Assembly: GCA_016793095.1 (NCBI GenBank)
Contig: JAEUJQ010000092.1
Span: forward strand, 62,001-126,000
Origin: Myxococcaceae bacterium
GTDB taxonomy: Bacteria > Myxococcota > Myxococcia > Myxococcales > Myxococcaceae
DNA length: 64,000 nucleotides
Direction of reading: 5' to 3'
Shown here: positions 49,693 through 63,158 of the stretch, one piece after another
Position numbering within the stretch: position 1 is the stretch's first letter
How the letters are laid out: each line of letters begins with the position of its first letter
The notes under the pieces: model-generated
Seen by the model: only the letters and a program-made list of their open reading frames with translations
Told to the model about the DNA's origin: nothing
The model's database searches: none
Made by a program: the position numbers and the translations under genes

Positions 49693-51015
49693 TCAGCGGC
49701 GAAGCCGGTCCAGCGCCCTGGCCACGACAGGCGCCTTGGCGTTGAGCTCATCGCGGAGCCTCTTCCTGATGAACTTGCCCGTAGACCTGGGCAACTGCGC
49801 GAGCTCGGCCTCGAGCGCGGTGATGCGCAGGTTCTTCTTCCGCACCGTCTCCTCAAGAGCAAACAGCGTCCGCTCGCGCGACTCGAAGGCGGCCACCACT
49901 TCGGTCCACACGGGGGAGTCAGGCCCGGCGTTGCGCGCCTGGTCGAGCAGGGGCGCGACAAGCTCTTTCTTGTTGAGGGCGGAATGCGTCGCTTCCAGCC
50001 ACTGGCGCCCGTAGCGCAGGTCGGGCTCGAGATGGCAGCCCTCACCCCACTCGTTCCAGGCATTGATGAAGACGAACTGCCGCTCCTCGGGCAGCAGGAG
50101 CCGCGTCTGGTGCACGACCTGGTGCAGCCAGAATTGGTAGTCGAATTGGGTCGAGTTGATGAAGATGTGAGGGTTGTCCTGCCGCCGCGCCGTGTTGTCC
50201 CACGACGGCATCACGCCCCGGTACCGCTCGTAGTCGACGCGGGGCTTCGCGAGCGCCTGGGCCATCACCTTCAGGTAGTCCACGACGGCGCCGCGGAACT
50301 TCGGGTTGGTGAAAGCAGGAATCGGGTCGGGTTTGTTCTCGGGGCCGATCAGCTGATGCGGCGGGAACTCGACCGCCGCATCGAAGCCCCACGGGCGCGG
50401 GTCGTTGATCCCGTAGAACTGGACCGCGCAGAGGTGGAGCCCCGGGAAGCCAGCATCGGTCGCCAGCTTCCGCCACCGCGCTGCGGTTGCCTTCATGTCG
50501 GGGAAGAGGTCGACACGGTAGACGAGCAGCATCGGCTTGCCGCCCACCTTGATGTAGCGGCTGTCAGCGAACAGCGGCAGCAGGCTCTTGAGGAAGGCCG
50601 CGTCGTCTTCGGGCGAGTGCTTCTGCCCGAGCAGCACGTCCTTCTCCTTGCCGTCCCACGTTCTCGTCCAGTTCTCGTTGGCCCAACAGACGCAGTAGTT
50701 GAAGTCGATGTCCTTCGTCGCCGCGTACTGGTTCAGCGGTCGCTCGAGGATCCGCCGGCCCCCGAACCAGTAGTAGTAGAAGCAGAACCCGTAGAGCCCA
50801 TACTCCTTCGCCAGCACAGCCTGCTTGCGCATGACGTCCACGTTCCGCAGGTCGTAGTAGCCGAGCTCGCCCGGCACGTGGGGCTGGTAGTGCCCCTCGA
50901 AGTTCGGCTTGCCCTTCACCACGTTGGTCCACTCGGTGAAGCCCTTGCCCCACCACTCGTCGTTCTCGGGCACCGGGTGGTACTGCGGCAGGTAGAAGGC
51001 TATCGACTTGACCAT
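49693..51015 (-). CDS. WbsX-like (GH99-like domain) polysaccharide biosynthesis protein
   Basis: 440 residues. Opening VKSIAFYLPQYHPVPENDEW, WWGKGFTEWTNV, and later WANENWTRTWDG, WDNTARR, FINAWNEWGEGCHLEPD are the classic WbsX/GH99-like pattern found in O-antigen and capsule loci. The C-terminus adds a helical region with ERTLFALEETVRKKNLRITA coiled coil. Start ATG 51015 is four bases after AGGAGG and overlaps the stop of the upstream glycosyltransferase (TGATG); GTG 51018 is an alternative. Exact activity unknown; endo-glycosidase or transferase suggested by the fold. Confidence 0.9.
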   Translation of the reverse strand: MVKSIAFYLPQYHPVPENDEWWGKGFTEWTNVVKGKPNFEGHYQPHVPGELGYYDLRNVDVMRKQAVLAKEYGLYGFCFYYYWFGGRRILERPLNQYAATKDIDFNYCVCWANENWTRTWDGKEKDVLLGQKHSPEDDAAFLKSLLPLFADSRYIKVGGKPMLLVYRVDLFPDMKATAARWRKLATDAGFPGLHLCAVQFYGINDPRPWGFDAAVEFPPHQLIGPENKPDPIPAFTNPKFRGAVVDYLKVMAQALAKPRVDYERYRGVMPSWDNTARRQDNPHIFINSTQFDYQFWLHQVVHQTRLLLPEERQFVFINAWNEWGEGCHLEPDLRYGRQWLEATHSALNKKELVAPLLDQARNAGPDSPVWTEVVAAFESRERTLFALEETVRKKNLRITALEAELAQLPRSTGKFIRKRLRDELNAKAPVVARALDRLRR

Positions 51016-53417
51016 CACGCCTCCTCGTCTTCGTCGAAGACCCGGGGCATGCCGTTGGAGTGCCGCAACGAGAGGTTCGGGTTGAAGAACGGGTCGGTCT
51101 GACCGGTCCGCACCTTCAGCCGCTGCACCTGCTCTTCGGGGCGCGGGGCCTTCGAGAAGTGCAGCACGCGCGCGTGGGGCGTGTAGAGCACACGCAAGCC
51201 GTGGGAACGAACACGAGCACAGAGATCGAAGACGGCCGCAGAGTTGTCGATCTCAGTCGAGAAGCCGCCCACCTTCTCGAGCACCCGGCGAGACACCGCG
51301 AAACACGCCGGCGAGACCGCGAGGTAGTTGCGCGTCCAGTCGGGGCTGCCCATGGTCGTCCATTCGCCCGCATCGGCCATGTTCTCGAAGGGACGCACCA
51401 CGTCGCCACGAGCGCCAACCACCCAGCCCGCGTCCTGGATCGTGGAGTTCGGGTTCACGAGCTTCGGGCCAACCACGCCGATGCCCGGCCTCAACGCCTG
51501 GCCGACCAGCTCGCCGAGCCAGCCGATGTCGATGACGGCCGTGTCTTCGTGCATGAACACGTAGACGTCGGCCTCGTTCCCACGCCACGCAGCCTCGTAC
51601 ATCGCCCCGATGTTCACGGGCCCGTTCCACTGAAGGTGGCGTGCGTTCGCCGTCGGGAACTTCGAGACGATGCACAGCTCGTGATCCTCCCAGGCGGTGT
51701 TCTCGAGGCCTTCCTTGAGGTGCGCGACCTTCGAGCTTCCGGCGACGACCACCATCGCGTGCGCGCGCTGCACCTCGTAGGAGATCTTGTAGTGCGTAGG
51801 GAAAGGCGACTGGATCGTGCCGCGCTCACCGCACCGCTCGAGGTGATCCGCGAGTGCACGGATGCCCGCCATCGCCGCCTTGGGCTTGTTCGCGACGTTC
51901 GAGGCGGTGGAGTCGGGGGTCGCGCGCCAGTGGTACAGCACCTCAGGGATGTGGCCCACCGACTTCGAAACCTCGCTCATGCGCAGCGCGAGATCGTAGT
52001 CCTGCGAGCCATCGAACCCTGTGCGCACCCGGCCGACTTCCTCGACGAGCGAACGCTTCGCGACGAGGAAGTGACAGATGTAGTTGCAGGCGCGCAGGAG
52101 GTCGGGCGACCAGTCGGGCTTGAAGAAGGGCACGACCCGCCGCTCTGCGCTGTCGAGGCGATCTTCGTCGGTGTAGAGGAAGTCGGTCTCAGGGTGCTTC
52201 GCGAGGTACAGGACCACCTCGGCGAGCGCGTGCTCGGACAGGGTGTCGTCGTGGTCGAGGAACGCGACGTACTCGCCGGTTGCCATCGCCAGCGCCTCGT
52301 TGGTCGCCACGGCGATCCCGCCGTTCCGGGGCATCAGCCGCACGCGGATTCGCGGGTCAAGTTCGGCGAGCGACTCGACGAAGTACTGGGTCTCGGCGTC
52401 GGGGCTCCCGTCGTCGACGAGGCACAGCTCCCAGCGCTCGTAGGACTGCGCAAGGACGGAGTCGACGCACTTCCTCAGCACCGTGCGATCGGCGCGGAAG
52501 GTCGGCGTGATGACGCTGATCATGGGGCGCCACTCGAGGTCCGCGACCTGCTGGGCGGCCTGCCGGGCGCGGCGCGCTTCGCGGCTGAGGATCGTCGCTG
52601 GGTACCAGGCGCGACCGTCGTCCGGCTGCAGCGGCAGACCGAAGAGCGAGGTGAAGGTCCTGGTCACCGACTCGTTGAAGACCTGTTGCTTGCGCAGCAG
52701 CTCGACCCACATCGGGAAGGTGACTCTCGACAACCCTTTCATCTCTTCGGGCAGCGGGAAGCGCGACAGGCGCATCATCTCGCCGAGCGCAAAGTGCACG
52801 TCCGGACCAGGGCTGCCAACGCTCTCCTCGAGCAGCGTGAAGAGCAGCTCCATCGCGTGGGCGTTCCACTCACGCTGCTGCCTGAGTGCCGGGCCCATGA
52901 AGTGGGCGAGCACCGACGAGACCCCCCTGGGCTTGACCGCCTTGATGCGGTTCTGCAGCGCGCTGAGCGTGGACCGAACGTGGGTGGACAGGCCGACGCC
53001 GCTCGGAAACCGACCGTCGATGCTCCACACGACGAAGTCGAGGAGGTTCTGGTTGAAGTCTCTCTGAGGCTCGAGCAGCCGCGAGTGGGCTGGGCGCAGC
53101 CCCTCGGCCACCACCCGCTTGGTCGACGTCACCAGCGTGCCGACCGCCGCGCGATGCGAAGGCTTCACCTCGAGTCGCAGCAGGTCCCAGCTCGCGATCG
53201 CTGGCCAGATCGCCTCGTGCGGCGGCACGCGCGGCGCCATCACCCGCCGCTCGATCTCCTTGTTGATGAAGGCCAACAACCGCCGGCCGGCCGACAGCTC
53301 CTCGGTGCTCGCCAAACCCCGTGCGGTGAGCGTCTCGATGACGCGGCTGTGCACCTCAGCGAGGTGTCTGAGCTCACCGAGCCCGACACTCGGAGCGCGC
53401 GAGTCTTCAATTCCCAT
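51015..53417 (-). CDS. Large glycosyltransferase: helical module, canonical GT2, degenerate second GT2
   Basis: 800 residues. An N-terminal helical region of about 295 residues includes LEPQRDFNQNLLDFVVW, LRQQREWNAHAMELL and WVELLRKQQVFNESVTRTF. The first GT2 domain (about 297-530) is complete: ISVITPTFRADRTVLRKCVD, CLVDDGSPDAET, FLDHDDTLSEHAL, YTDEDRL. The second (about 560-780) keeps the fold (VGPKLVNPNSTIQDAGWVVG, LRVLYTPHARVLHF) but its donor-site segment reads YVFMHEDTAVID instead of L-N-N-D-I. Starts 11 nt inside the end of the small GT2 gene. Role: surface polysaccharide chain synthesis. Confidence 0.9.
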   Translation of the reverse strand: MGIEDSRAPSVGLGELRHLAEVHSRVIETLTARGLASTEELSAGRRLLAFINKEIERRVMAPRVPPHEAIWPAIASWDLLRLEVKPSHRAAVGTLVTSTKRVVAEGLRPAHSRLLEPQRDFNQNLLDFVVWSIDGRFPSGVGLSTHVRSTLSALQNRIKAVKPRGVSSVLAHFMGPALRQQREWNAHAMELLFTLLEESVGSPGPDVHFALGEMMRLSRFPLPEEMKGLSRVTFPMWVELLRKQQVFNESVTRTFTSLFGLPLQPDDGRAWYPATILSREARRARQAAQQVADLEWRPMISVITPTFRADRTVLRKCVDSVLAQSYERWELCLVDDGSPDAETQYFVESLAELDPRIRVRLMPRNGGIAVATNEALAMATGEYVAFLDHDDTLSEHALAEVVLYLAKHPETDFLYTDEDRLDSAERRVVPFFKPDWSPDLLRACNYICHFLVAKRSLVEEVGRVRTGFDGSQDYDLALRMSEVSKSVGHIPEVLYHWRATPDSTASNVANKPKAAMAGIRALADHLERCGERGTIQSPFPTHYKISYEVQRAHAMVVVAGSSKVAHLKEGLENTAWEDHELCIVSKFPTANARHLQWNGPVNIGAMYEAAWRGNEADVYVFMHEDTAVIDIGWLGELVGQALRPGIGVVGPKLVNPNSTIQDAGWVVGARGDVVRPFENMADAGEWTTMGSPDWTRNYLAVSPACFAVSRRVLEKVGGFSTEIDNSAAVFDLCARVRSHGLRVLYTPHARVLHFSKAPRPEEQVQRLKVRTGQTDPFFNPNLSLRHSNGMPRVFDEDEEA

Positions 53418-54327
53418 GGCGATCTCCGCTGAGGCTGCCGCCGATCATGGCGCCTTCGGGACGGTAGAAGGGCTCATCAACACCCTCCCACCCTGCGAGA
53501 TACGGCTGGTACGAATGCTCCTTCACGAAGACCTCATAGAAGACCGGCCAATGGTACGGCGATGGGGCGAGACGGTTGACGGGCCGACGGCGGGTGGCGG
53601 CCTTGAGGTACCGGCGCATCAGCTCGGGGCACTCCCTGGCAGCGACCTCACCCATCAGGGCGGTGAACGAGTTGGTCCCGTGCAACCGGTAGGCATACAG
53701 CCGGTCAGGCACGTAGACCGGCTCGGTCACCAGAAGAGACCGCAGGATGAAGTCCCAGTCGTGGACGAGCCGGTACGGGCGGAAGAGGCCGATCTCGTCG
53801 AGCAGGGCGCGCTTGAAGAAGAAGTTCCCGGTCGAGATGGCGACGTTGGACAGCACGAGCGCCCACCCGACGGTAGGGAACTGCTCGATGGCCGCTTGCT
53901 TGGCCGCGAGCTCGGCGGCGTAGTCGGACACGGCGCTGACGTCGACGCCGTGCTCATCCACGTACCAGACCCCGCTGAATCCGAAGCGGCCGCCAGCATC
54001 GCTCACCGCAGCCGCCATTCTCTCGAGGCGCTCGACGTGGAAGAGGTCGTCGGAGTTGCAGAGCGCGACCCACTCACCACGCGCGCGGCGCAGGCCCTGA
54101 TTGAGGGCTTCATGCGCGCCCTGGTTCGGCTGGCGGATGCGCACCACCTCGTGCTTCGCCGTGAACCGGAAGTCCTGAATGCGGGTCCACGTCTCGTCGG
54201 TCGAGCCGTCGTCGATGACGATCACCTCGAGCGGTCCCATCGTCTGAGAGTCGATGCTGCGCAGGCACGCCTCGACGTAGGCCTCATGGCGGTAGCAGGG
54301 CACGATGACTGAGACAGCGGGGCGCAC
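53407..54327 (-). CDS. GT2-family glycosyltransferase
   Basis: 306 residues from GTG 54325-54327, where the GT-A fold starts (AVSVIVPCYRHEAYVEACL). IDDGSTDETW (nucleotide site), LCNSDDLFHVERLER (metal-binding Asp pair), and VHDWDFILRSLL (catalytic base region) are typical of cytoplasmic GT2 enzymes that add one sugar to a lipid-linked glycan. The frame extends 34 codons upstream without conserved sequence. Acceptor and sugar unknown. Located between the frameshifted membrane gene and the large GT. Confidence 0.9.
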   Translation of the reverse strand: MRPAVSVIVPCYRHEAYVEACLRSIDSQTMGPLEVIVIDDGSTDETWTRIQDFRFTAKHEVVRIRQPNQGAHEALNQGLRRARGEWVALCNSDDLFHVERLERMAAAVSDAGGRFGFSGVWYVDEHGVDVSAVSDYAAELAAKQAAIEQFPTVGWALVLSNVAISTGNFFFKRALLDEIGLFRPYRLVHDWDFILRSLLVTEPVYVPDRLYAYRLHGTNSFTALMGEVAARECPELMRRYLKAATRRRPVNRLAPSPYHWPVFYEVFVKEHSYQPYLAGWEGVDEPFYRPEGAMIGGSLSGDRHGN

Positions 54328-54337
54328 CGCCGGCCCC

Positions 54338-55595
54338 TTATTCTTCCCCGCCTGGTGACGCAACGCCCTCGGCTCGATCGGGCAGAGGCATGAACCAGCC
54401 CTCGGGCCAGATCTCGACGCGCGAAGCACCGCTCGAGCGCGCCTTCGAGAGCGCGGCGGGCCACGGCGGGCCGGGGATCGTCACGAAGAGCCCCGTGCCA
54501 GCCTGCAGGGCGCAGATCCACGCGAGCGACACCGAGAGCAACCGCTCGGCCCAGCGGGGACCGTGCGTCATGGCGACCGCTGTCAACACGAGCGTCGCGG
54601 GAACAGCGAAGTACCGGGCTCCTCCCAGCACAGACTCGAAGTCAGCAGCGGCCCCGTGCGGCGCAGCGACCGCGACGACTGCGACCACGAGGCCAGAGTA
54701 GAGGGTCAGCTGCGCTGGCCGCGAGCGGGCCGTGACCACTCGGAGCACTGCGAGCCCCAGCAGGACCAAGGAAACCAGCTGCAGAGCGACGCCGTTGAGC
54801 TGATCCGCCGCGGTGGACGACAAGGGCACCGCCACGAGGTGAAACCCGAGGACGCGCAGCCCCTCGACCACCTCTCCAGTGGCCGTTCTGCCTGGGCCCG
54901 TCATCACGAGCAGACCGAGTTGGCCAGCGGAGGCCAGAGCCAGGAGCGCAAACCGGCGCAGGTGTTCGGGCTCACGGGAGTGCCAGGCGACCAGCGCGAA
55001 CGCCGGCAGGAGAAGAGTGGCGGGGACTCCGCTGAGCCCGCACACGAAGGCGAGAGCCGCGGGCCACCACGAGACCCGAGCTGGGAGCAGCAAGACGAAC
55101 CGTGAAGTAGACCGCGTAGAAGTGTAGGTTGGCGGCGTTGGCGAGCGGCTCGGCAACCTGAGGCAGAGCGGAGCTGAGGGTGAGGAAGACAACGAGCGCG
55201 CGAACCTCGAGCACTCCCGACCGCCACAGCGTCGCTGCGGCGACGGGCACCAGCATCGCGACGAGCAGTGGGAGCCAGGTGAGCACTCGCGCCGCTGCTT
55301 CGAGCTCGACGAACGACGCCAACCAAGCCACGAGGTTCGTCCAGCCCTCGAGGTGACCGTGGTACACGAACCACAGGGTTTGATTCTCGATCATGGCGGG
55401 CAGGAAGACCGTCCCGTCCTCAGCCCAGATGCGACCGGAGCCGAGGAAGAACCGGCACCGGTAGGCCAGCGCACAGCTCGACAGCAGCGCCGCGAGCGAG
55501 ACCAGGGCGGTAGCACGGGGCCGCTGGTTCTGGTAGGGCGCGGGAATCATGAGCCAGCGAGCGAGACTTTTCCTCTTCTTACTCACGGGCGACAT
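54338..55595 (-). pseudogene. Frameshifted multi-pass membrane protein of the polysaccharide locus
   Basis: Two overlapping minus-strand frames are halves of one gene. The first begins MSPVSKKRKSLARWLMIPAP, has IWAEDGTVFLPAM and YHGHLEGWTNLVAWLASF (an extracytoplasmic acidic loop as in GT-C transferases), and runs to NLHFYAVYFTV. The second continues naturally with FVLLLPARVSWWPAALAFVC and more membrane helices to a soluble end at 54338. Switching frames near 55095-55112 (one extra or two missing bases) would give about 415 residues with about ten helices. Either a real inactivating mutation or a sequence error. No homopolymer run explains it. Confidence 0.8.
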
Positions 55596-55667
55596 CGCTG
55601 GCGCGGACCTCGAGTGGCGTGGCGGTGCTTCGCCCTGTCAACGCAGGCCGTAATAGCAGGCACGATC

Positions 55668-58600
55668 ATGTCACGACATTCCGTAGGGGCTGAGCACGCG
55701 AGCCTCGTCTCCTTCGACATCGCACCCTCTCCACGGATGGCGACCGAGCAGCTGCTCCTCGCCCTGTCGGACTGGCAGCAGGAGTGCGAACGCTCGGGTG
55801 ACCGCAGCGACGCTGCGGTGCTGAGGCAGTCGCTGGTCGCCAACCTCCTGACGCAAGGTGGCGCGCTTCAGGGGCTCTCAGGCGCCCTCGAGCTGGCGGA
55901 ACGTTATGCGGACGTCGTCGCTCCGCCGTCGGAGGCGCGGGGCCCGGGCGCGGCGCTCAGGGAGCTGTTCTTTCCCCTCGAGGTGGAGTTCCTCCGGCCA
56001 CAAGCCGAGTTCAACCGCGCCTTCGTCGAGGTCGCGCGCCGCGTGCTCTCCAGTCCCTCGGCCACCATCCGATCGTGGACGAGGGCGCGCCTCAAGCCAC
56101 TCGCCGACCCGCACGGCTTCCGCGTCAAGAGCCACCGGAACAACGTCGTCGGTCGGCTGGTCGAGCTCTTGAAGAAGAGCTCGCTCGTCGCGCTGGAGCC
56201 TTTCGCGAAGGGCTTCCTCGATCGTCAGGCTGAGTGGAACGACTGGGCGATGGCGCTGCTCGAGCGGTTCGGGGTGGGCGGCGTCGAGCCCATCGAGCTC
56301 CAGGCGATCCTCGATCGCATGGCCGAAGGGCCTCACCCCTCCGACCAGCCGCCGGCCAGCGTCACCGAGAACGTGCTCGCCTTCTGGAAGGAACTCGAGC
56401 GCAAGCAGCTGCTCTTCAACCGGCAGGTGGTGACGCTGTTCCGCGGGAAGGTAGGGCTGCCCTCGAGCCAGGTCCGCTACGACGACTGGATCCGCACCAT
56501 CGAGAAGCAGCGCCTCGCCGAGCCTGCGCCGGCAGTGGCGCTCACCGTTGGCGCCCTCATCGACGGGCGCGGCGCGAGCGCAGCGGCGTTGCGACAGACG
56601 GTCGAGTCGCTCGAGAAGCAGGTGGTTCCCCCGACGGAGATCATCGTGGTGGAGAACGGCGAGGCGAGGCTCCCCGCGGCAGAGCTCGTGCTCCTGCTCC
56701 GCGCTGGTGACGTCGTGGCCTCCGACGCGACCCGGTGCTTCGCGCGCGCGGCGATCGAAAACCCCGAGGCTTCCTGGTTCTACGCAGACGAAGACCGCGA
56801 CGTGTCGCACAAACGAGTCGAGCCGTTGCTCAAGGCCCGCTTCAACCCCGCGCTGCTCTTCTCCTGCGATCTCTTCGCCCGCAGCTGTGCCGCTCGTCGC
56901 ACCCTGCTCGAGCGCCTGCCTCTTCCATCACCCGAGGTGCCCTTCCGCTACGACCTGGCGCTCCGCGCACACGAGGCCCACGCGTCGTTCGCGCATGTCC
57001 CCTCTGTGCTCGTCACTTCGCCTGGCCCCTCCCGCCCCGGGGACCTGGTGCCGGAGCACGGCGAGCGCTCGCTGGCCCGGTTCTTCGAGCGTCAGGGGGT
57101 CGCGGTCGAGATCGACCGGCGGCACACCGCGTTCCAGGTGCGCTTCGTGCCACCCCGCCGACCGCTCGTCTCGATCATCGTCCCCTTCAAGGACAAGCCA
57201 GAGCTGCTCCGGCAGTTGCTCAAGAGCCTCTCCGCCACCTCCTACGAGAACTACGAGCTTCTGCTCGTCTCGAACCAGAGCTCTGAGCCCGAGACCGAGG
57301 CGCTCCTCAGCTCGATCACCGACCGCAGGGTTCGCGTCTCGAAGTGGGATCACCCCTTCAGTTACACGGCCATCAACAACGACGCAGCCCGGCAGGCGAA
57401 GGGAGAGCTGCTGCTCTTCCTCAACAACGACATCGAGATCAGCGAGACGCGGTGGCTCACCGATCTCGTCGGGCGCGCCCTGCAACCTGGCACTGGCGTG
57501 GTCGGCGCCCGCCTGTTGTTCCCGGATCGAACGCTGCAACACGTCGGGGTCGTCGTCGGCATGTCGGGCTACGCAGATCACGTGATGTCGGGTCAGCCCG
57601 ACGACGGAGGGCTGACGGTCGCGGGGTCCTCGGACTGGTCTCGCGAGTGGTCGGCGGTCACCAGCGCGTGCATGCTGATCAGCCGGGAAGACTACGACGC
57701 AGTCGGCGGCTTCGACGAGCGCTTCAAGCTCTGCGGTGGGGACGTCGATCTGTGCCTGCGCGTGCGGGCGCGCGGCAAGCGAATCGTCTACGCCGCCGAG
57801 GTCACCCTGATTCACCACGAGTCGGCGACGCGTGGCCGCTCGGTCATTCCCCAGAGCGACTTCGTGGAGTCTCTTCGCGCCTATCGTGGAGTGCTCGGCG
57901 CTGATCCCTTCTACCCGTCAGCCTTGAGCCTCGCGACCACCACGCCGCAGCTGCGGACGCCCGACGAGCCGACGGCCATCGAGCTGTCAGTACGGGCGCT
58001 GGGGTTCGTCGCGGGTGACAGAGCGAGCCCGTTGTCCTCGGCGCGGGTCGCGTCGATCAACAGTGTGCGGCGGTTCATCAACGAGCTGGACGACGCGCCT
58101 CCGGTCAGTCGCTCCACGTTGTCACGACCTCCCAGGGACATCACGTGGCTCATCCCAGGCTTCGCGCACCCGTTCGGGGGCATTCACACCATCTTCCGCT
58201 TCGCTCACCTGTGGAAGAAGCACTTCGACGTCACCAACCGCTTCGTGGTCTACGATCAACCCAACGTGTCGGCGCGCGAGATCGAGGCGCGTGCAGCCAT
58301 GTTGTGGCCCGAGTTGCCTGGCTCGTTCGAGGTGCTCGGGTCGCTGTCCGCCGTCGGCTCGCTCCCCCAGACCGACCTCGCCATCGCGACGCTCTGGTCC
58401 AGCGCCTTTCTGGTCGCTCGGCACCCGCGAGCCGGGGCGCGGGCCTATTTCGTTCAGGACGACGAGCCGGCGTTCCACGCTGCCGGCAGCCTGAGCGCGC
58501 TCGCCGACCGCACCTATGAACTCGGCCTCTACGGCATCTTCAACAGCCGCGGGCTTCACGACACGCTGACGACCAGGCACTCGATCCGGGGCACCTTCTT

Positions 58601-59195
58601 CGAGCCGTCAGTCGATCACGACCTGTTCCACGCCAACGGCCGGGTGAGCCAACACGACCCGCTGCGAGTGTTCTTCTATGCTCGTCCCTCCGTCGATCGG
58701 AACGCCTTCGAGCTCGGCCTCGAGTCGCTGCGCGAGTTCAAGGCGCGCCTCGACGGCCCGGTCGAGATCGTCTGCGCCGGAGAGTTCTTTGACCCTGCGC
58801 TCTTCGGGGCCTCGGGGCTGATCGAGAACCTGGGGGTACTCCCCTACGCCGAGACGGCGGCCCTCTACCGCTCGAGCCACCTCGGGCTGTGCTTCATGAT
58901 GACGAAGCACCCGTCCTACCTGCCGCTCGAGCTGATGGCGTGCGGGGCGACCGTGGTGACCAACGTGAACCCGGCGAATGACTGGCTCTTCGAAGACGGT
59001 GCGAACTGTCTGCTGAGCCGCCCGACGCGGGCCGGGGTGGTCGAGTCCCTGCTGCGCGCCGCGAGGGACCCCGAGCTGCGCCAACGCATCGGCAGCGGCG
59101 CGGCGGAGCGGCTGCGGCGTACCACGTGGGAGCGGCAGGCCACGCGAACCTTCGACCACCTGACCCGGGCGCTGACGGCCTCGAACCCGACGTGA
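55668..59195 (+). CDS. Giant glycosyltransferase: helical module, degenerate GT2, GT2, WsaF-like C-domain
   Basis: 1175 residues from ATG 55668. N-terminal helical module (about 90-280) has FLRPQAEFNRAFVEVARRVL, LDRQAEWNDWAMALLERF, FWKELERKQLLFNRQVV. A shortened GT2-like domain (about 288-480) lacks D-D-G-S and D-x-D but keeps WFYADEDRDVSHKRVEPLLK. A canonical GT2 (about 497-745) follows: VSIIVPFKDKPELLRQLL, SYTAINNDAARQAKGELLLF, LNNDIEI. The last 350 residues (ITWLIPGFAHPFGGIHTIF, YFVQDDEP, FMMTKHPSYLPLELMACG) resemble WsaF-type GT4-fold rhamnosyltransferases. Rhamnose use fits rmlBD downstream. Confidence 0.88.
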   Translation: MSRHSVGAEHASLVSFDIAPSPRMATEQLLLALSDWQQECERSGDRSDAAVLRQSLVANLLTQGGALQGLSGALELAERYADVVAPPSEARGPGAALRELFFPLEVEFLRPQAEFNRAFVEVARRVLSSPSATIRSWTRARLKPLADPHGFRVKSHRNNVVGRLVELLKKSSLVALEPFAKGFLDRQAEWNDWAMALLERFGVGGVEPIELQAILDRMAEGPHPSDQPPASVTENVLAFWKELERKQLLFNRQVVTLFRGKVGLPSSQVRYDDWIRTIEKQRLAEPAPAVALTVGALIDGRGASAAALRQTVESLEKQVVPPTEIIVVENGEARLPAAELVLLLRAGDVVASDATRCFARAAIENPEASWFYADEDRDVSHKRVEPLLKARFNPALLFSCDLFARSCAARRTLLERLPLPSPEVPFRYDLALRAHEAHASFAHVPSVLVTSPGPSRPGDLVPEHGERSLARFFERQGVAVEIDRRHTAFQVRFVPPRRPLVSIIVPFKDKPELLRQLLKSLSATSYENYELLLVSNQSSEPETEALLSSITDRRVRVSKWDHPFSYTAINNDAARQAKGELLLFLNNDIEISETRWLTDLVGRALQPGTGVVGARLLFPDRTLQHVGVVVGMSGYADHVMSGQPDDGGLTVAGSSDWSREWSAVTSACMLISREDYDAVGGFDERFKLCGGDVDLCLRVRARGKRIVYAAEVTLIHHESATRGRSVIPQSDFVESLRAYRGVLGADPFYPSALSLATTTPQLRTPDEPTAIELSVRALGFVAGDRASPLSSARVASINSVRRFINELDDAPPVSRSTLSRPPRDITWLIPGFAHPFGGIHTIFRFAHLWKKHFDVTNRFVVYDQPNVSAREIEARAAMLWPELPGSFEVLGSLSAVGSLPQTDLAIATLWSSAFLVARHPRAGARAYFVQDDEPAFHAAGSLSALADRTYELGLYGIFNSRGLHDTLTTRHSIRGTFFEPSVDHDLFHANGRVSQHDPLRVFFYARPSVDRNAFELGLESLREFKARLDGPVEIVCAGEFFDPALFGASGLIENLGVLPYAETAALYRSSHLGLCFMMTKHPSYLPLELMACGATVVTNVNPANDWLFEDGANCLLSRPTRAGVVESLLRAARDPELRQRIGSGAAERLRRTTWERQATRTFDHLTRALTASNPT

Positions 59196-61168
59196 ACACG
59201 CCTGTCCGCGAGGCCCTCGAGCGTTTCGGGCGCCAAGGCACGGTCGACCCCGAGCTGCGCGCGCTGGTCGCCGACGCTCTCGCGCGGGCGCCGCGGCTCT
59301 ACCAGGCCCGCGCGTCTGCTGACGTGCTGTCCGTCGGACTCGAGCGTCGACCCGCCGCAGAGCAGCCGCTCTGGGGCGAAGCCCTGCGGAATCAAGTCGA
59401 GTTCAACCACGCGCTCGTCGATCTCGTCGAGGCGTGGCCCTGGCTCACACTCGAAAACCGCCGCGTCGTGCTCGGCGGGCTCGACCGGCAGGCCCGTCAC
59501 GAGTGGAACCCTCCCCGGAAGCCAGGGGCCCGTGGCTTCGCGGTTTCGTCGCTCAAGGTGCTCGCCGGGCCGGTGGTCGGCGTGTTGCTCCGCGCCACCT
59601 TCGAGGAGCTCACGCGCGCCAACGCCGAGGTCCTCCGGTCGCTCCGGGACGACTACCCGGGCGGACCGGCGATCGAGGGGGCGGGGCGTGCGCTCCGCGT
59701 ACGAGGAGGAGCGAGCGGTCCATTCTGCCAGGCGCAGGCGAGCTTCCTCGTCGCGCTCGCGCGCAGCCTCGAGCTGACCCTGCGGGCAGGCCAGGCGCCG
59801 CCAGCCGACGCTCCGACAGGCGCCGTCTCGCTGCGGCCAGCGGTGAGCGGCACGGGCCCGATCGTCATCCGCCTCGGCGCCGCTGAGGGCTTCACGAAGG
59901 AGGGCGCCCGTCACCTCATCGATGCCTTCTCCACCCCGTCGGTGATGGCCGCGTTCGGCGACGCCTGGCTCGACGGGCGTCGGGTCTTCCGACCGTCGTA
60001 CGGCAGGGAGTCGCTGTGGCAGACCAACGTGATCGGCGAGACGTTCGCGGTGCGGGCATCGCTCGTCGAGGCGCGAAAGCTGACCGCCGCGTCGGAGCCG
60101 CTCGAGTGGCTGCTCGCCGAGGGCCTCGACGAACGAACGGTCGCCCGAATCCCCGAGGTGGTGACCGTCGGCAAGCGGGTCGCAGAGACGGCGGCTGCGG
60201 GCGCCATCGTGCAGCAAGCCATCTCGCCGACCGTCCACGCAACGGTGACGCAGAATGACGGCAGTCGGACCGTTCGTCTGCGTTCGACCAGGCGGCCGCT
60301 GGTGTCGGTCATCGTGCCGTTCCGCGATGCGCCCGAGCTGCTCGAGGGCCTCTGGCGTTCGCTCGATCAGCACCGCGCAGGCGCTGAGTTCGAGCTCGTG
60401 CTCGCGTCGAATCAGTCGCGGGAAGGTCGCACGTTCCGGCTCCTCGACTCCTTGAGCGGGAACCGCAACGTTCGCTGGTTCGAATGGAACCAACCTTTCA
60501 ACTACTCGGCCATCAACAACGCCGCGGTGCACCGCGCCCAGGGCGACCTGCTGTTGTTCCTCAATAACGACATCGAGGTTCGCCATGACGACTGGCTCGC
60601 GGATCTGGTCGGCTACGCAGAGCTCGCCGAGGTGGGGGCCGTCGGCGCACGGCTGCTGTACCAGGACGGGTCGCTGCAACACGCTGGAGTCGCGCTGGGC
60701 TTTCGCGGGCTGGCGGGCCATTTCTTCGCGAGGTGGAGGCCGGAGTTCGGCTCGACGCCGTTCGGCTGGCCAGGGACACGTAACTGGACGGCGGTGACGG
60801 GCGCCTGCCTGCTGATGCGGCGCGAGGTGTTCCACGACGTCGGCGGCTTCGACGAGCGCATGGTGGTGTCTGGGAGCGACATCGAGCTGTGCTGTCGCGT
60901 GCGAGCGCGTGGCCTGAGGGTCGTCTGCGTCGGGCACGTCGAGCTGACCCACTTCGAGTCCCAGAGCCGAGGGAGGACCCCTCCATCGCTTGATGACCTG
61001 CGGCGCGAGCTGCTCGCCTTCCTGCCGATGATCGAAGCGGGGGACCCCTACGCTCACCCAGGCCTGTGCCGGCACGGCCTGACCGGCTACGGCGCGCTCG
61101 AGCCAGAAGACGGCTTGTCGTTCGCGCTCAGATCGATTGCCGGGCGCCTGGTCGCCGCGTCGCGGTGA
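59192..61168 (+). CDS. Glycosyltransferase with degenerate first and canonical second GT2 domain
   Basis: 658 residues from GTG 59192, overlapping the previous stop by 4 nt. Helical N-terminus with LRNQVEFNHALVDLVEAW. Residues about 225-350 look like an eroded GT2 (IVIRLGAAEGF, GDAWLDGRRVFRPSYGRES, GETFAVRASLVEARKL) aligned by eye with the eroded domain of the preceding protein. The C-terminal GT2 (about 367-640) is canonical: VSVIVPFRDAPELLEGLWRS, FNYSAINNAAVHRAQGDLLL, FLNNDIEVRHDDWLADLVG, FDERMVVSGSDIELCCRVRA. Polysaccharide assembly role inferred. Confidence 0.88.
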   Translation: MNTPVREALERFGRQGTVDPELRALVADALARAPRLYQARASADVLSVGLERRPAAEQPLWGEALRNQVEFNHALVDLVEAWPWLTLENRRVVLGGLDRQARHEWNPPRKPGARGFAVSSLKVLAGPVVGVLLRATFEELTRANAEVLRSLRDDYPGGPAIEGAGRALRVRGGASGPFCQAQASFLVALARSLELTLRAGQAPPADAPTGAVSLRPAVSGTGPIVIRLGAAEGFTKEGARHLIDAFSTPSVMAAFGDAWLDGRRVFRPSYGRESLWQTNVIGETFAVRASLVEARKLTAASEPLEWLLAEGLDERTVARIPEVVTVGKRVAETAAAGAIVQQAISPTVHATVTQNDGSRTVRLRSTRRPLVSVIVPFRDAPELLEGLWRSLDQHRAGAEFELVLASNQSREGRTFRLLDSLSGNRNVRWFEWNQPFNYSAINNAAVHRAQGDLLLFLNNDIEVRHDDWLADLVGYAELAEVGAVGARLLYQDGSLQHAGVALGFRGLAGHFFARWRPEFGSTPFGWPGTRNWTAVTGACLLMRREVFHDVGGFDERMVVSGSDIELCCRVRARGLRVVCVGHVELTHFESQSRGRTPPSLDDLRRELLAFLPMIEAGDPYAHPGLCRHGLTGYGALEPEDGLSFALRSIAGRLVAASR

Positions 61169-61227
61169 GGGCTTGTCTTCACCAAGAGCCTCGCGTACTC
61201 GCGGAGCGCAGGTTCAAGGGAGATTCC

Positions 61228-62082
61228 ATGTACGAGAGATTCTCGCGACTGAGCGACGCCGACTGGCACGCGGTGCTGAAACGTTCCCTGAAGGAGCCGG
61301 TCATCGACGGGGTTCGCTTTCCCGGGTTCCCGGATGACTCGACCCAGGCGCTCTTCACGAGCCACAAGGGCGACGCGGCGCTGAACGAGGCCTTCACGTT
61401 CTTCCAGATCGCTCAGGCAGCGTGCTCGCGCTTCGGCAAGCCGCTCGGCCGCGCAACGCGGCTCCTCGACTTCGGCGTCGGTTGGGGCCGCATCGTGCGC
61501 TACTTCCTCCGAGACGTTGCGCCTCAGAACATTCACGGCGTCGACGTCACGCCACAGGTGCTGGGCATCTGCCAGTCGCTCCTGCCCGTCGGTGATTACC
61601 GTCTGGTGAAACCACGCGGCGCGTTCGACTACGCCGACGCGTCGTTCGATCTCGTCACGGCGTTCTCGGTCTTCTCGCACCTGTCCGCGGACAACGGGCT
61701 TCACTGGATCCGGGAAATGCACCGCGTCGTCGCGCCCGGCGGGCTCGTGGTGTTGACCACCCTGAGCCGATCATTCGTCGCGCTGTGCCGCGACGTCGCG
61801 ACGAATCCCGGGGCGAGCGACTGGGCGAAGGGCATGGCGGAGTCCGTGACCCGCTCGTACCCCGACTGGAAGACGAAGCTGGCGAAGTTCCCCGAGGACG
61901 AGCTGCTCTACCTCTCGTCGGGCGGGGGCTTCGATAGCCTGGCCCCGGACGACTACGGCTGGGCGATGGTCCCGGCGGCGTGGGCGCGGAAGAACTGGGG
62001 CCCGTACTTCGAAGTGGTTGAGTACGCCGATGATCCCGCGAAGCTCGCCCAGGCGTACATGACGCTGCGCCGTCGCCCGTAG
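61228..62082 (+). CDS. SAM-dependent methyltransferase (class I)
   Basis: 284 residues from ATG 61228, preceded by AAGGGAGA. LLDFGVGWGRIVRYFL is the SAM motif I, HGVDVTPQVLGIC the acidic loop, FDLVTAFSVFSHLS motif II, and EMHRVVAPGGLVVLTTLSRS the post-motif. A C-terminal part ending VEYADDPAKLAQAYMTLRR is typical of glycan-locus methyltransferases that cap or modify sugars. Target sugar unknown. Gap of 59 bp from the glycosyltransferase gene. Confidence 0.88.
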   Translation: MYERFSRLSDADWHAVLKRSLKEPVIDGVRFPGFPDDSTQALFTSHKGDAALNEAFTFFQIAQAACSRFGKPLGRATRLLDFGVGWGRIVRYFLRDVAPQNIHGVDVTPQVLGICQSLLPVGDYRLVKPRGAFDYADASFDLVTAFSVFSHLSADNGLHWIREMHRVVAPGGLVVLTTLSRSFVALCRDVATNPGASDWAKGMAESVTRSYPDWKTKLAKFPEDELLYLSSGGGFDSLAPDDYGWAMVPAAWARKNWGPYFEVVEYADDPAKLAQAYMTLRRRP

Positions 62083-62135: not shown

Positions 62136-63158
62136 ATGAACGTCCTCGTCACCGGTGGTTGTGGCTTCATCGGCTCCAACCTCGTCCATTGGCTGCGGAA
62201 GAACCGGCCCGCGTGGACCGTCGTCAACCTCGACAAGCTCACCTACGCCGGCAACCTCGAGAACCTCGCCGCGCTCGAGGGCGACCCGAAGCACGTCTTC
62301 GTCCAGGGCGACATCTGCAACCGTGAGCTCATCGATCACGTCATTCGCACGCACCGCATCGACGCGATCATGCACCTGGCGGCCGAGAGCCACGTCGACC
62401 GCTCGATCCTCGGGCCCGAGGCCTTCATCAAGACGAACATCCTGGGCACCCAGGTGCTCCTCGAGGCCGCGCGCCACGCGAAGCTCTCCCGCTTCCTCAT
62501 GGTGTCCACCGACGAGGTGTACGGCTCGCTCGGCCCCACCGGCTTCTTCACCGAGACGACGCCGCTCGCCGCCTCGAGCCCCTACTCCGCCTCCAAAGCC
62601 TCGGCCGATCTCATCACCCTCGCCTACGAGCACACGTTCGGCCTCGACGTCGTCGTCACCCGCTGCTCGAACAACTACGGCCCGTTCCAGTTCCCCGAGA
62701 AGCTGATCCCCCTCATGGTGATCAACGCGCTCCATGACAAGCCGCTGCCGGTGTACGGCGACGGGCTCAACGTGCGCGACTGGCTGCACGTGGACGATCA
62801 CTGCTCGGCCCTCGTGACGGTGCTCGAGAAGGGCAAGAAGGGCGGCGTCTACAACATCGGCGGCAACTCGGAGCGCACCAACATCGTCATCGTGAAGACG
62901 ATCCTCCAGGCGGTGGGCAAGCCGGAGTCGCTCATCAAGTACGTGCAGGACCGCCCCGGCCACGACCGGCGCTACGCCATCGACGCCACGAAGATCCGCA
63001 CCGAGCTGGGCTGGGAGCCGAGCCGCGTCTTCGAGAAGGCGCTCGCCGAGACGGTGAAGTGGTACCTCGATCACCGGCCCTGGTGGGAGCACATCACCTC
63101 GGGCGCGTACCGACAGTACTTCGACACCCAGTACAAGGCCCGCCTCGAGAAGCACTGA
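62136..63158 (+). CDS. rfbB: dTDP-glucose 4,6-dehydratase
   Basis: 340 residues, standard RmlB length. Converts dTDP-glucose to dTDP-4-keto-6-deoxyglucose, second step to dTDP-L-rhamnose. NAD motif VTGGCGFIGSNLVHWL, substrate segment HLAAESHVDRSI, catalytic STDEVYGSLG (Thr-Asp-Glu) and SPYSASKASADLI (Tyr-x-x-x-Lys), CSNNYGPFQFPEKLIPLM, and YGDGLNVRDWLHVDDHC are intact. Followed after 1 nt by rfbD. An AT-rich TACATAAG and TTGACC lie upstream but with wrong spacing for a clear promoter. Confidence 0.97.
   Translation: MNVLVTGGCGFIGSNLVHWLRKNRPAWTVVNLDKLTYAGNLENLAALEGDPKHVFVQGDICNRELIDHVIRTHRIDAIMHLAAESHVDRSILGPEAFIKTNILGTQVLLEAARHAKLSRFLMVSTDEVYGSLGPTGFFTETTPLAASSPYSASKASADLITLAYEHTFGLDVVVTRCSNNYGPFQFPEKLIPLMVINALHDKPLPVYGDGLNVRDWLHVDDHCSALVTVLEKGKKGGVYNIGGNSERTNIVIVKTILQAVGKPESLIKYVQDRPGHDRRYAIDATKIRTELGWEPSRVFEKALAETVKWYLDHRPWWEHITSGAYRQYFDTQYKARLEKH

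Follow-up and report, generated by a model that had tools for sequence, protein, structure and literature searches.

Three large glycosyltransferases are encoded in a 64,000-nt stretch of a Myxococcaceae bacterium genome (GCA_016793095.1, contig JAEUJQ010000092.1, positions 62,001-126,000 of the forward strand; hereafter the window), and the question is what the N-terminal region common to them may be and do. The proteins are referred to as P1 (51015-53417, minus strand, 800 residues), P2 (55668-59195, plus strand, 1175 residues), and P3 (59192-61168, plus strand, 658 residues), the genes of P2 and P3 overlapping by four bases. A sequence-only reading had given these coordinates and reading frames correctly, and had described a single 200-residue module with three different signatures. 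We found instead that a single unit of ~57 residues recurs in tandem along the shared region, P3 keeping only a part of it, and that the signatures are mostly one motif, Q-x-x-[FW]-N, three times over. The remainder of P1, P2, and P3 is glycosyltransferase family 2 (GT2), with a WsaF-like family 4 (GT4) domain at the C-terminus of P2, as recognized by Pfam and NCBIfam.

The unit follows the pattern P..[ST]HR...G......K.................Q..[FW]N. The P..[ST]HR...G box comes first and forms a helix cap, followed by a hydrophobic and basic helix start containing the Lys, and then by the QxxFN segment. In the diverse unit alignment A6, the Arg, Lys, Gln, and Asn are invariant, and the His and Gly are nearly so. 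LxxQxx[FW]N occurs at residues 115, 178, and 241 of P1 and likewise at three places in P2; in P3 the first is clear and the later ones are only remnants. The first signature, LEPQRDFN in P1, LRPQAEFN in P2, and LRNQVEFN in P3, is indeed present in all three proteins, but its proposed L-x-P-Q start holds for P1 and P2 only, as P3 has Asn in place of Pro. The second (QQREWNAHAMELL in P1, RQAEWNDWAMALL in P2) and the third (WVELLRKQQVFN in P1, WKELERKQLLFN in P2) are confined to these two proteins, their equivalents in P3 being decayed. The third motif was found in 18 of the 19 sequences of alignment A1. Units 1 and 2 can be aligned with each other over ~57 residues, and the aligned relatives of P1 have three units in a constant order.

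The P1 module (residues 1-265; 52623..53417, minus strand) has three units and is helical in an AlphaFold2 model of residues 1-283. Its unit 1 extends from the SHR box to QRDFN (53010..53183; profile A6, E 2.7e-18, genome-wide as for the A6 values below), unit 2 is represented by its QREWN half (52824..52928; E 0.0014, and 11.2 bits with the held-out profile described below), and unit 3 by the half with the third motif (52647..52715; sequence and alignment A1). The P2 module (residues 1-270; 55668..56477, plus strand; sequence and alignment) has lost the SHR part of unit 1 and keeps the QAEFN half (55953..56048; E 9.7e-4), has a complete unit 2 from SHR to QAEWN (56106..56282; E 8.1e-17), and keeps the third-motif half of unit 3 (56379..56459; sequence and alignment A1). 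In P3, the QVEFN half of unit 1 (59357..59434, plus strand) is matched by profile A6 with E 2.2e-4 and by held-out profiles with 12.0 and 17.0 bits, and the later units are decayed.

Similarity among the three N-termini is uneven. Smith-Waterman alignment of P1 with P2 scores 96, where shuffled sequences average 36 (Z 10.2, 0 of 1000 shuffles), P2 and P3 are weakly similar (Z 2.9, 13/1000), and P1 and P3 are not significantly similar pairwise (Z 1.6, 77/1000). P3 is recovered by profiles. We then used a held-out profile built from 16 stand-alone units, that is, units occurring singly in small proteins; sequences from the window and three-unit enzymes were kept out of it, and 3323 sequences were searched. 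P2 (15.8 bits), P1 (14.4 bits), and P3 (12.0 bits) came out on top, the best of 3000 shuffles reaching 7.0 bits and the other open reading frames of the window scoring lower. Hence, the stand-alone and three-unit settings share one homologous unit.

Under curated cut-offs, Pfam and NCBIfam match nothing over the module or the stand-alone protein outside catalytic parts, which rules out identity with a domain named there and agrees with the sequence-only reading, in which the module had no name. Profiles A1, A2, and A6 retrieved only chance-level rows from PDB sequences, WbdD not being among them. Relatives of the P1 module alone are found in 59 of the 96 genomes of the host family, and profile A2 has matches in 92 of 195 Myxococcota genomes. 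The unit profile A6 matches 27 of 32 genomes, mostly one per genus; of these A6 matches, those in large frames and a weak one (G051:C131) were retrieved in part. The stand-alone profile A3 matches all 18 genomes searched, including that of the window. Outside chromosomes, two stand-alones gave no tblastn match to plasmids, a unit consensus gave none to plasmids and phages, and viral contigs gave none with A5 and one 22-residue match (L198) with the L159 query. In Firmicutes and further phyla, some methyltransferases and glycosyltransferases may likewise have SHR...QxxFN segments at their N-termini. No description of the unit or its proteins was found in open-licence PubMed Central (PMC) papers. 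The unit is a real, widespread, and unnamed repeat of myxobacteria, shared by glycosyltransferases of the O-antigen type and the small proteins that partner them. A short GT2 enzyme with one N-terminal unit, intermediate between the stand-alone and three-unit forms, was seen in another Myxococcota family (G105, L132 6895-8226, plus strand).

The stand-alone proteins have about 140-250 residues: a small N-terminal part precedes a single unit, which is followed by a coiled coil and, in most of them, by a basic tail. The window's own genome encodes one on contig C55 (L082 10253-10765, minus strand). They fall into two classes, 'MKLLGRDI..THR..FINEALGRQRVFN' and 'MRAEDL..SHRP..QPFINEVLRRQVEFN', and Myxococcus xanthus AM003 has one match of each class in addition to its three-unit enzyme. 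None of the five stand-alones scanned with Pfam has a catalytic domain. Tail length varies freely, and the mean net charge of the tails is +4.1 (n=34). The classes differ in their coiled coils by an insertion of 11 residues (L174, L177, L189 versus L159, L168); as this is the length of a hendecad, the register could be kept. Locus L089, from a record titled Comamonas sp. KCTC 72670, is a myxobacterial-type O-antigen locus with a stand-alone unit, rmlB, and a WsaF-type enzyme, for which reason the Comamonas label is probably wrong.

The likeness to a Q-x-x-F-N segment of other glycan-locus proteins, as suggested earlier, is borne out by these small proteins, which lie beside GT4 and wzm-wzt genes. 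A GT4 gene, mostly of the two-domain kind, precedes the stand-alone gene on the same strand within 600 bp in 31 of the 33 cases sampled, most often at a distance of 3-80 bp; among the remaining genes of these loci, 17 of 150 are so placed, and among window genes 0 of 42. Not counted in the sample are L178, which is a three-unit enzyme, loci L153-L158 from the window's genus, and loci L129-L131 from the M. xanthus group. The two stand-alones lacking an upstream GT4 are L162, which is at a contig end, and the second unit gene of L165 (13091-13660, plus strand), the second stand-alone gene of one genome and the sole such case away from a contig end. The wzm/wzt genes lie within 4 kb downstream in 7 of the 33 cases. 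In the genus of the window, the stand-alone adjoins wzm-wzt in six of seven genomes, mostly just upstream. No Wzt_C family member was found in the window's own genome, hence the Wzt beside its stand-alone has no Wzt_C part recognizable by that model. The three-unit enzyme follows wzm-wzt directly in L081, as it does in M. xanthus AM003 (L128), and in L190, a locus of one metagenome-assembled genome, a GT4, a stand-alone, and a three-unit enzyme are consecutive. In several Myxococcus and Corallococcus loci, rmlB, a stand-alone, and a three-unit enzyme form one cluster.

The AlphaFold2 model of P1 residues 1-283, computed from 19 sequences, is all helical (predicted local distance difference test, pLDDT, 83.9; predicted TM-score, pTM, 0.76), in line with the helical character first proposed. 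Its best Foldseek match among solved folds has an E value of 0.3, and VIA-align gives Z values of at most 11.0 to helical bundles, which is inside the stated noise range. The own-genome stand-alone, modeled from 34 sequences, has a single helix of 72 residues (72-143) starting just after the THR box, with pLDDT of 88-98 in blocks 71-140; because the overall pTM is 0.42, we make no claim on the overall shape. We then computed the heptad register of the stand-alones in alignment A7 (34 of 38; L181, L192, L193, and L155 left out) from the 31 residues downstream of QxxFN, excluding the motif itself. It places the Gln at position d and the Asn at position a in 34 of 34 sequences and in both classes, the two classes being the safer count since the sequences are related and are not 34 independent tests. 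None of 5000 shuffles equals the family-mean heptad signal; for the 24 MKL-like sequences alone, 1 of 5000 does so, and for the 10 others alone, 34 of 5000. The unit is thus predicted to be helical and, in the stand-alones, to continue into a coiled coil with the invariant Gln and Asn in its core. These would form a buried polar layer, a hallmark of specific oligomerization.

The catalytic parts point to the kinship of the window enzymes. P1, P2, and P3 are paralogues of an M. xanthus enzyme whose gene comes directly after wzm-wzt. In strain AM003 (L128), this gene has 1275 codons, and its product comprises three units, GT2, GT2, and WsaF_C. We take it as RfbC/WbgA, MXAN_4621, on the basis of gene order and size, RfbC of the rfbABC work of Guo in 1996 being reportedly 1276 residues long and WbgA being another name for M. 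xanthus RfbC. MXAN 4621 is given as 'RfbC/SasA Glycosyl transferase' in PMC2129111. The O-antigen of M. xanthus uses the route of an ATP-binding cassette (ABC) transporter, and loss of Wzm/Wzt blocks it, according to PMC7484181. RfbC/WbgA is the third gene of rfbABC (wzm, wzt, glycosyltransferase) and has the unit three times before GT2, GT2, and a WsaF-like part, whereas the window spreads these domains over three genes with differing GT2 losses and no adjacent wzm-wzt. No Wzm homologue was found in the window or its two 18-kb flanks, and the Wzt query matches another ABC protein, at 26-27 kb; the position directly after wzm-wzt, which distinguishes RfbC in M. xanthus AM003, is hence not that of the window genes. 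With respect to the three-unit module of RfbC/WbgA-type enzymes, P1 and P2 have retained it whole, with three units each, and P3 has one clear half-unit.

In P1, the first GT2 is intact with motifs DHDD, DED, and QDYD (52179..52517, minus strand; PF00535 at residues 301-413, 3e-31; alignment with RfbC-type enzymes), and the motifs of the second are gone, LNND being replaced by MHED and CGSDVEL by NSAAVFD in the alignment with the M. xanthus enzyme. In P2, the first GT2 is decayed; the second is kept with LNNDIE, GGDVDL, and HHES (57171..57521, plus strand; PF00535, 1.9e-18; alignment), and so is the C-terminal WsaF-like GT4 (58665..59051, plus strand; PF22772, 4.9e-29), the sole match in the genome. 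P3 also has a decayed first GT2 and keeps only the second type with LNNDIE (60305..60838, plus strand; PF00535, 1.7e-11; alignment), without a WsaF part. The GT2 half that P1 has lost is thus not the one lost by P2 and P3, so that the RfbC paralogues of the window complement one another in what is missing. Because no single window protein has GT2, GT2, and WsaF all intact, they are paralogues or parts and not a full RfbC. WsaF itself, the Geobacillus S-layer glycan rhamnosyltransferase, has the Pfam WsaF_C domain in common with the C-termini of P2 and the M. xanthus enzyme; the likeness is that of the catalytic GT4 part only, the repeat lying outside that Pfam model.

Repetition of the unit, its homology between three-unit RfbC-type GT2 enzymes and one-unit stand-alones, the place of the latter after a GT4, and the domain losses can be read from the sequences. 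What the unit does is a matter of interpretation. We give about an even chance to the unit being an oligomerization or docking element that joins the glycosyltransferases of an ABC-transporter (Wzm-Wzt) O-antigen machine. The scaffold docking of the sequence-only reading is the best-supported interpretation. The stand-alone would use its N-terminal part to hold its GT4 partner, oligomerize via the QxxFN layer, and join RfbC-type enzymes that carry the unit in cis, and the glycosyltransferases of the Wzm-Wzt pathway would thereby act as one complex, RfbC having the unit in cis and the GT4 receiving it in trans. In the window, where RfbC would have become three paralogues, the kept module may let P1, P2, and P3 act as one composite polymerase, as we infer from their losses. 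A more specific version, tentative and in our judgment rather improbable, has a QxxFN oligomer of defined number, perhaps a trimer by analogy with WbdD, built around the buried Gln/Asn layer: RfbC would bring three linked units and the GT4 one unit through its adaptor, helix exchange or co-assembly would be the rule, and the three half-dead RfbC paralogues would rebuild one polymerase.

To our knowledge, it is mainly the WbdD-type proteins of enteric bacteria that have shown how soluble glycosyltransferases are gathered on one growing chain when O-antigen is made by the ABC-transporter route. WbdD of Escherichia coli O9a has a coiled coil, recruits the polymerase, and forms a trimer via its C-terminal helix (PMC3482155 and PMC11231755). 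WbdD and the related coiled-coil proteins of Klebsiella pneumoniae O3, O5, O12, O4, and O7 likewise place a helical coiled coil in this pathway, and the coiled coil of such a scaffold is predicted, from helix and heptads, for the stand-alones and not for the units of the GT2 enzymes. Unlike WbdD, the proteins considered here have neither a kinase nor a methyltransferase fused to them, the RfbC-type carriers scanned being glycosyltransferases only, and the unit is repeated in cis in a polymerase-type enzyme and given in trans by a small protein. We therefore compare the unit with WbdD in outline, and do not class it as WbdD, since it lacks a terminator domain and matches no PDB chain by sequence.

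Several results weigh against a docking role. For 26 of the 33 stand-alones, no wzm-wzt lies within 4 kb, some of these being at contig ends. In the window's genome, the three-unit enzymes are on contig C49 and the stand-alone with wzm-wzt is on C55, at different loci, and little of the module is left in P3. The binding between units and partners is itself something that we infer. No heptad pattern is present in the half of the unit before QxxFN (4923 of 5000 shuffles as high). In unit 1 of the three-unit enzymes, the d/a register occurs in 4 of 19 sequences and a/e in 12 of 19, and the mean heptad profiles of units 1, 2, and 3 are equaled in 1339, 3308, and 3170 of 5000 shuffles, respectively; since L006 lacks units 2 and 3, these were computed from 18 of the 19 sequences. 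Such an unclear register is expected for helices bundled on more than one face, and equally if the idea is wrong there.

A membrane role, which had also been suggested at first, is the rival that survives best, and we regard it as unlikely though still live. The unit would be an in-plane anchor: its helix start, hydrophobic and rich in Lys and Arg, would rest on the inner leaflet and so deliver soluble glycosyltransferases to the undecaprenyl-linked substrate, with the basic tails helping. The invariant Lys, the hydrophobic helix start, and the basic stand-alone tails fit this, as does the membrane-associated amphipathic helix of WbdD, the known analogue (PMC11231755). The helical-moment test of the first half of the unit gave no support: the best 18-residue score, from a HeliQuest-like formula, reached p<0.05 against shuffles in only 3 of 34 sequences (mean 1.50 versus 1.37 shuffled). 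An anchor has no need of a coiled-coil core in which Gln and Asn are invariant, and its needs are exceeded by three copies per enzyme plus a separate partner protein. Buried Gln/Asn layers in coiled coils fix partner number and register. This layer, the GT4 linkage, and the cis/trans distribution together favor oligomerization or docking over a mere membrane anchor.

It is improbable that the coiled coil of the stand-alones acts, like that of WbdD, as a molecular ruler that regulates O-antigen chain length. The long predicted helix, the WbdD precedent (PMC3482155 and PMC11231755), and the wzm-wzt genes close by in part of the loci would suit it, but none of the carriers examined has the unit fused to a terminating enzyme, and the helix has about 72 residues only, followed by a tail of freely varying length. 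That the module is a partnerless ancestral extension stabilizing the neighboring GT2 fold is improbable too: the unit precedes GT2 parts in the RfbC-type enzymes examined, but it also stands alone and well conserved without any GT2, and is kept in P2 though the adjoining GT2 is decayed.

The flanking genes complete the picture of the locus. The gene at 49693-51018 on the minus strand overlaps the end of P1 by four bases; as judged by eye, its product resembles WbsX/GH99-like proteins of glycan loci and has a C-terminus like a coiled coil. A small GT2 gene (53407-54429, minus strand; PF00535, 3.2e-28) overlaps the start of P1 and is likely its operon partner; no unit was seen in it. Between P3 and rmlB lies a gene for a methyltransferase-like protein (61066-62082, plus strand; by eye) without a QxxFN unit. 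The rmlB-like gene, for dTDP-glucose 4,6-dehydratase (62136..63158, plus strand), was assigned from its sequence and BLAST neighbors, and rmlB-like genes adjoin stand-alone units at other loci too.

For the myxobacteria, the finding means that one small conserved unit without a name in Pfam or NCBIfam marks both a polymerase-type enzyme and the dedicated partner of another enzyme. The unit profile can be used to find partner proteins in other glycan loci. M. xanthus, in which the O-antigen affects motility and development, is among the carriers, so that the assembly rule is approachable in a tractable model by a few point changes at the invariant Gln and Asn. If three units in cis and one in trans do co-assemble, this would be the rule by which myxobacteria place different glycosyltransferases in one O-antigen machine.

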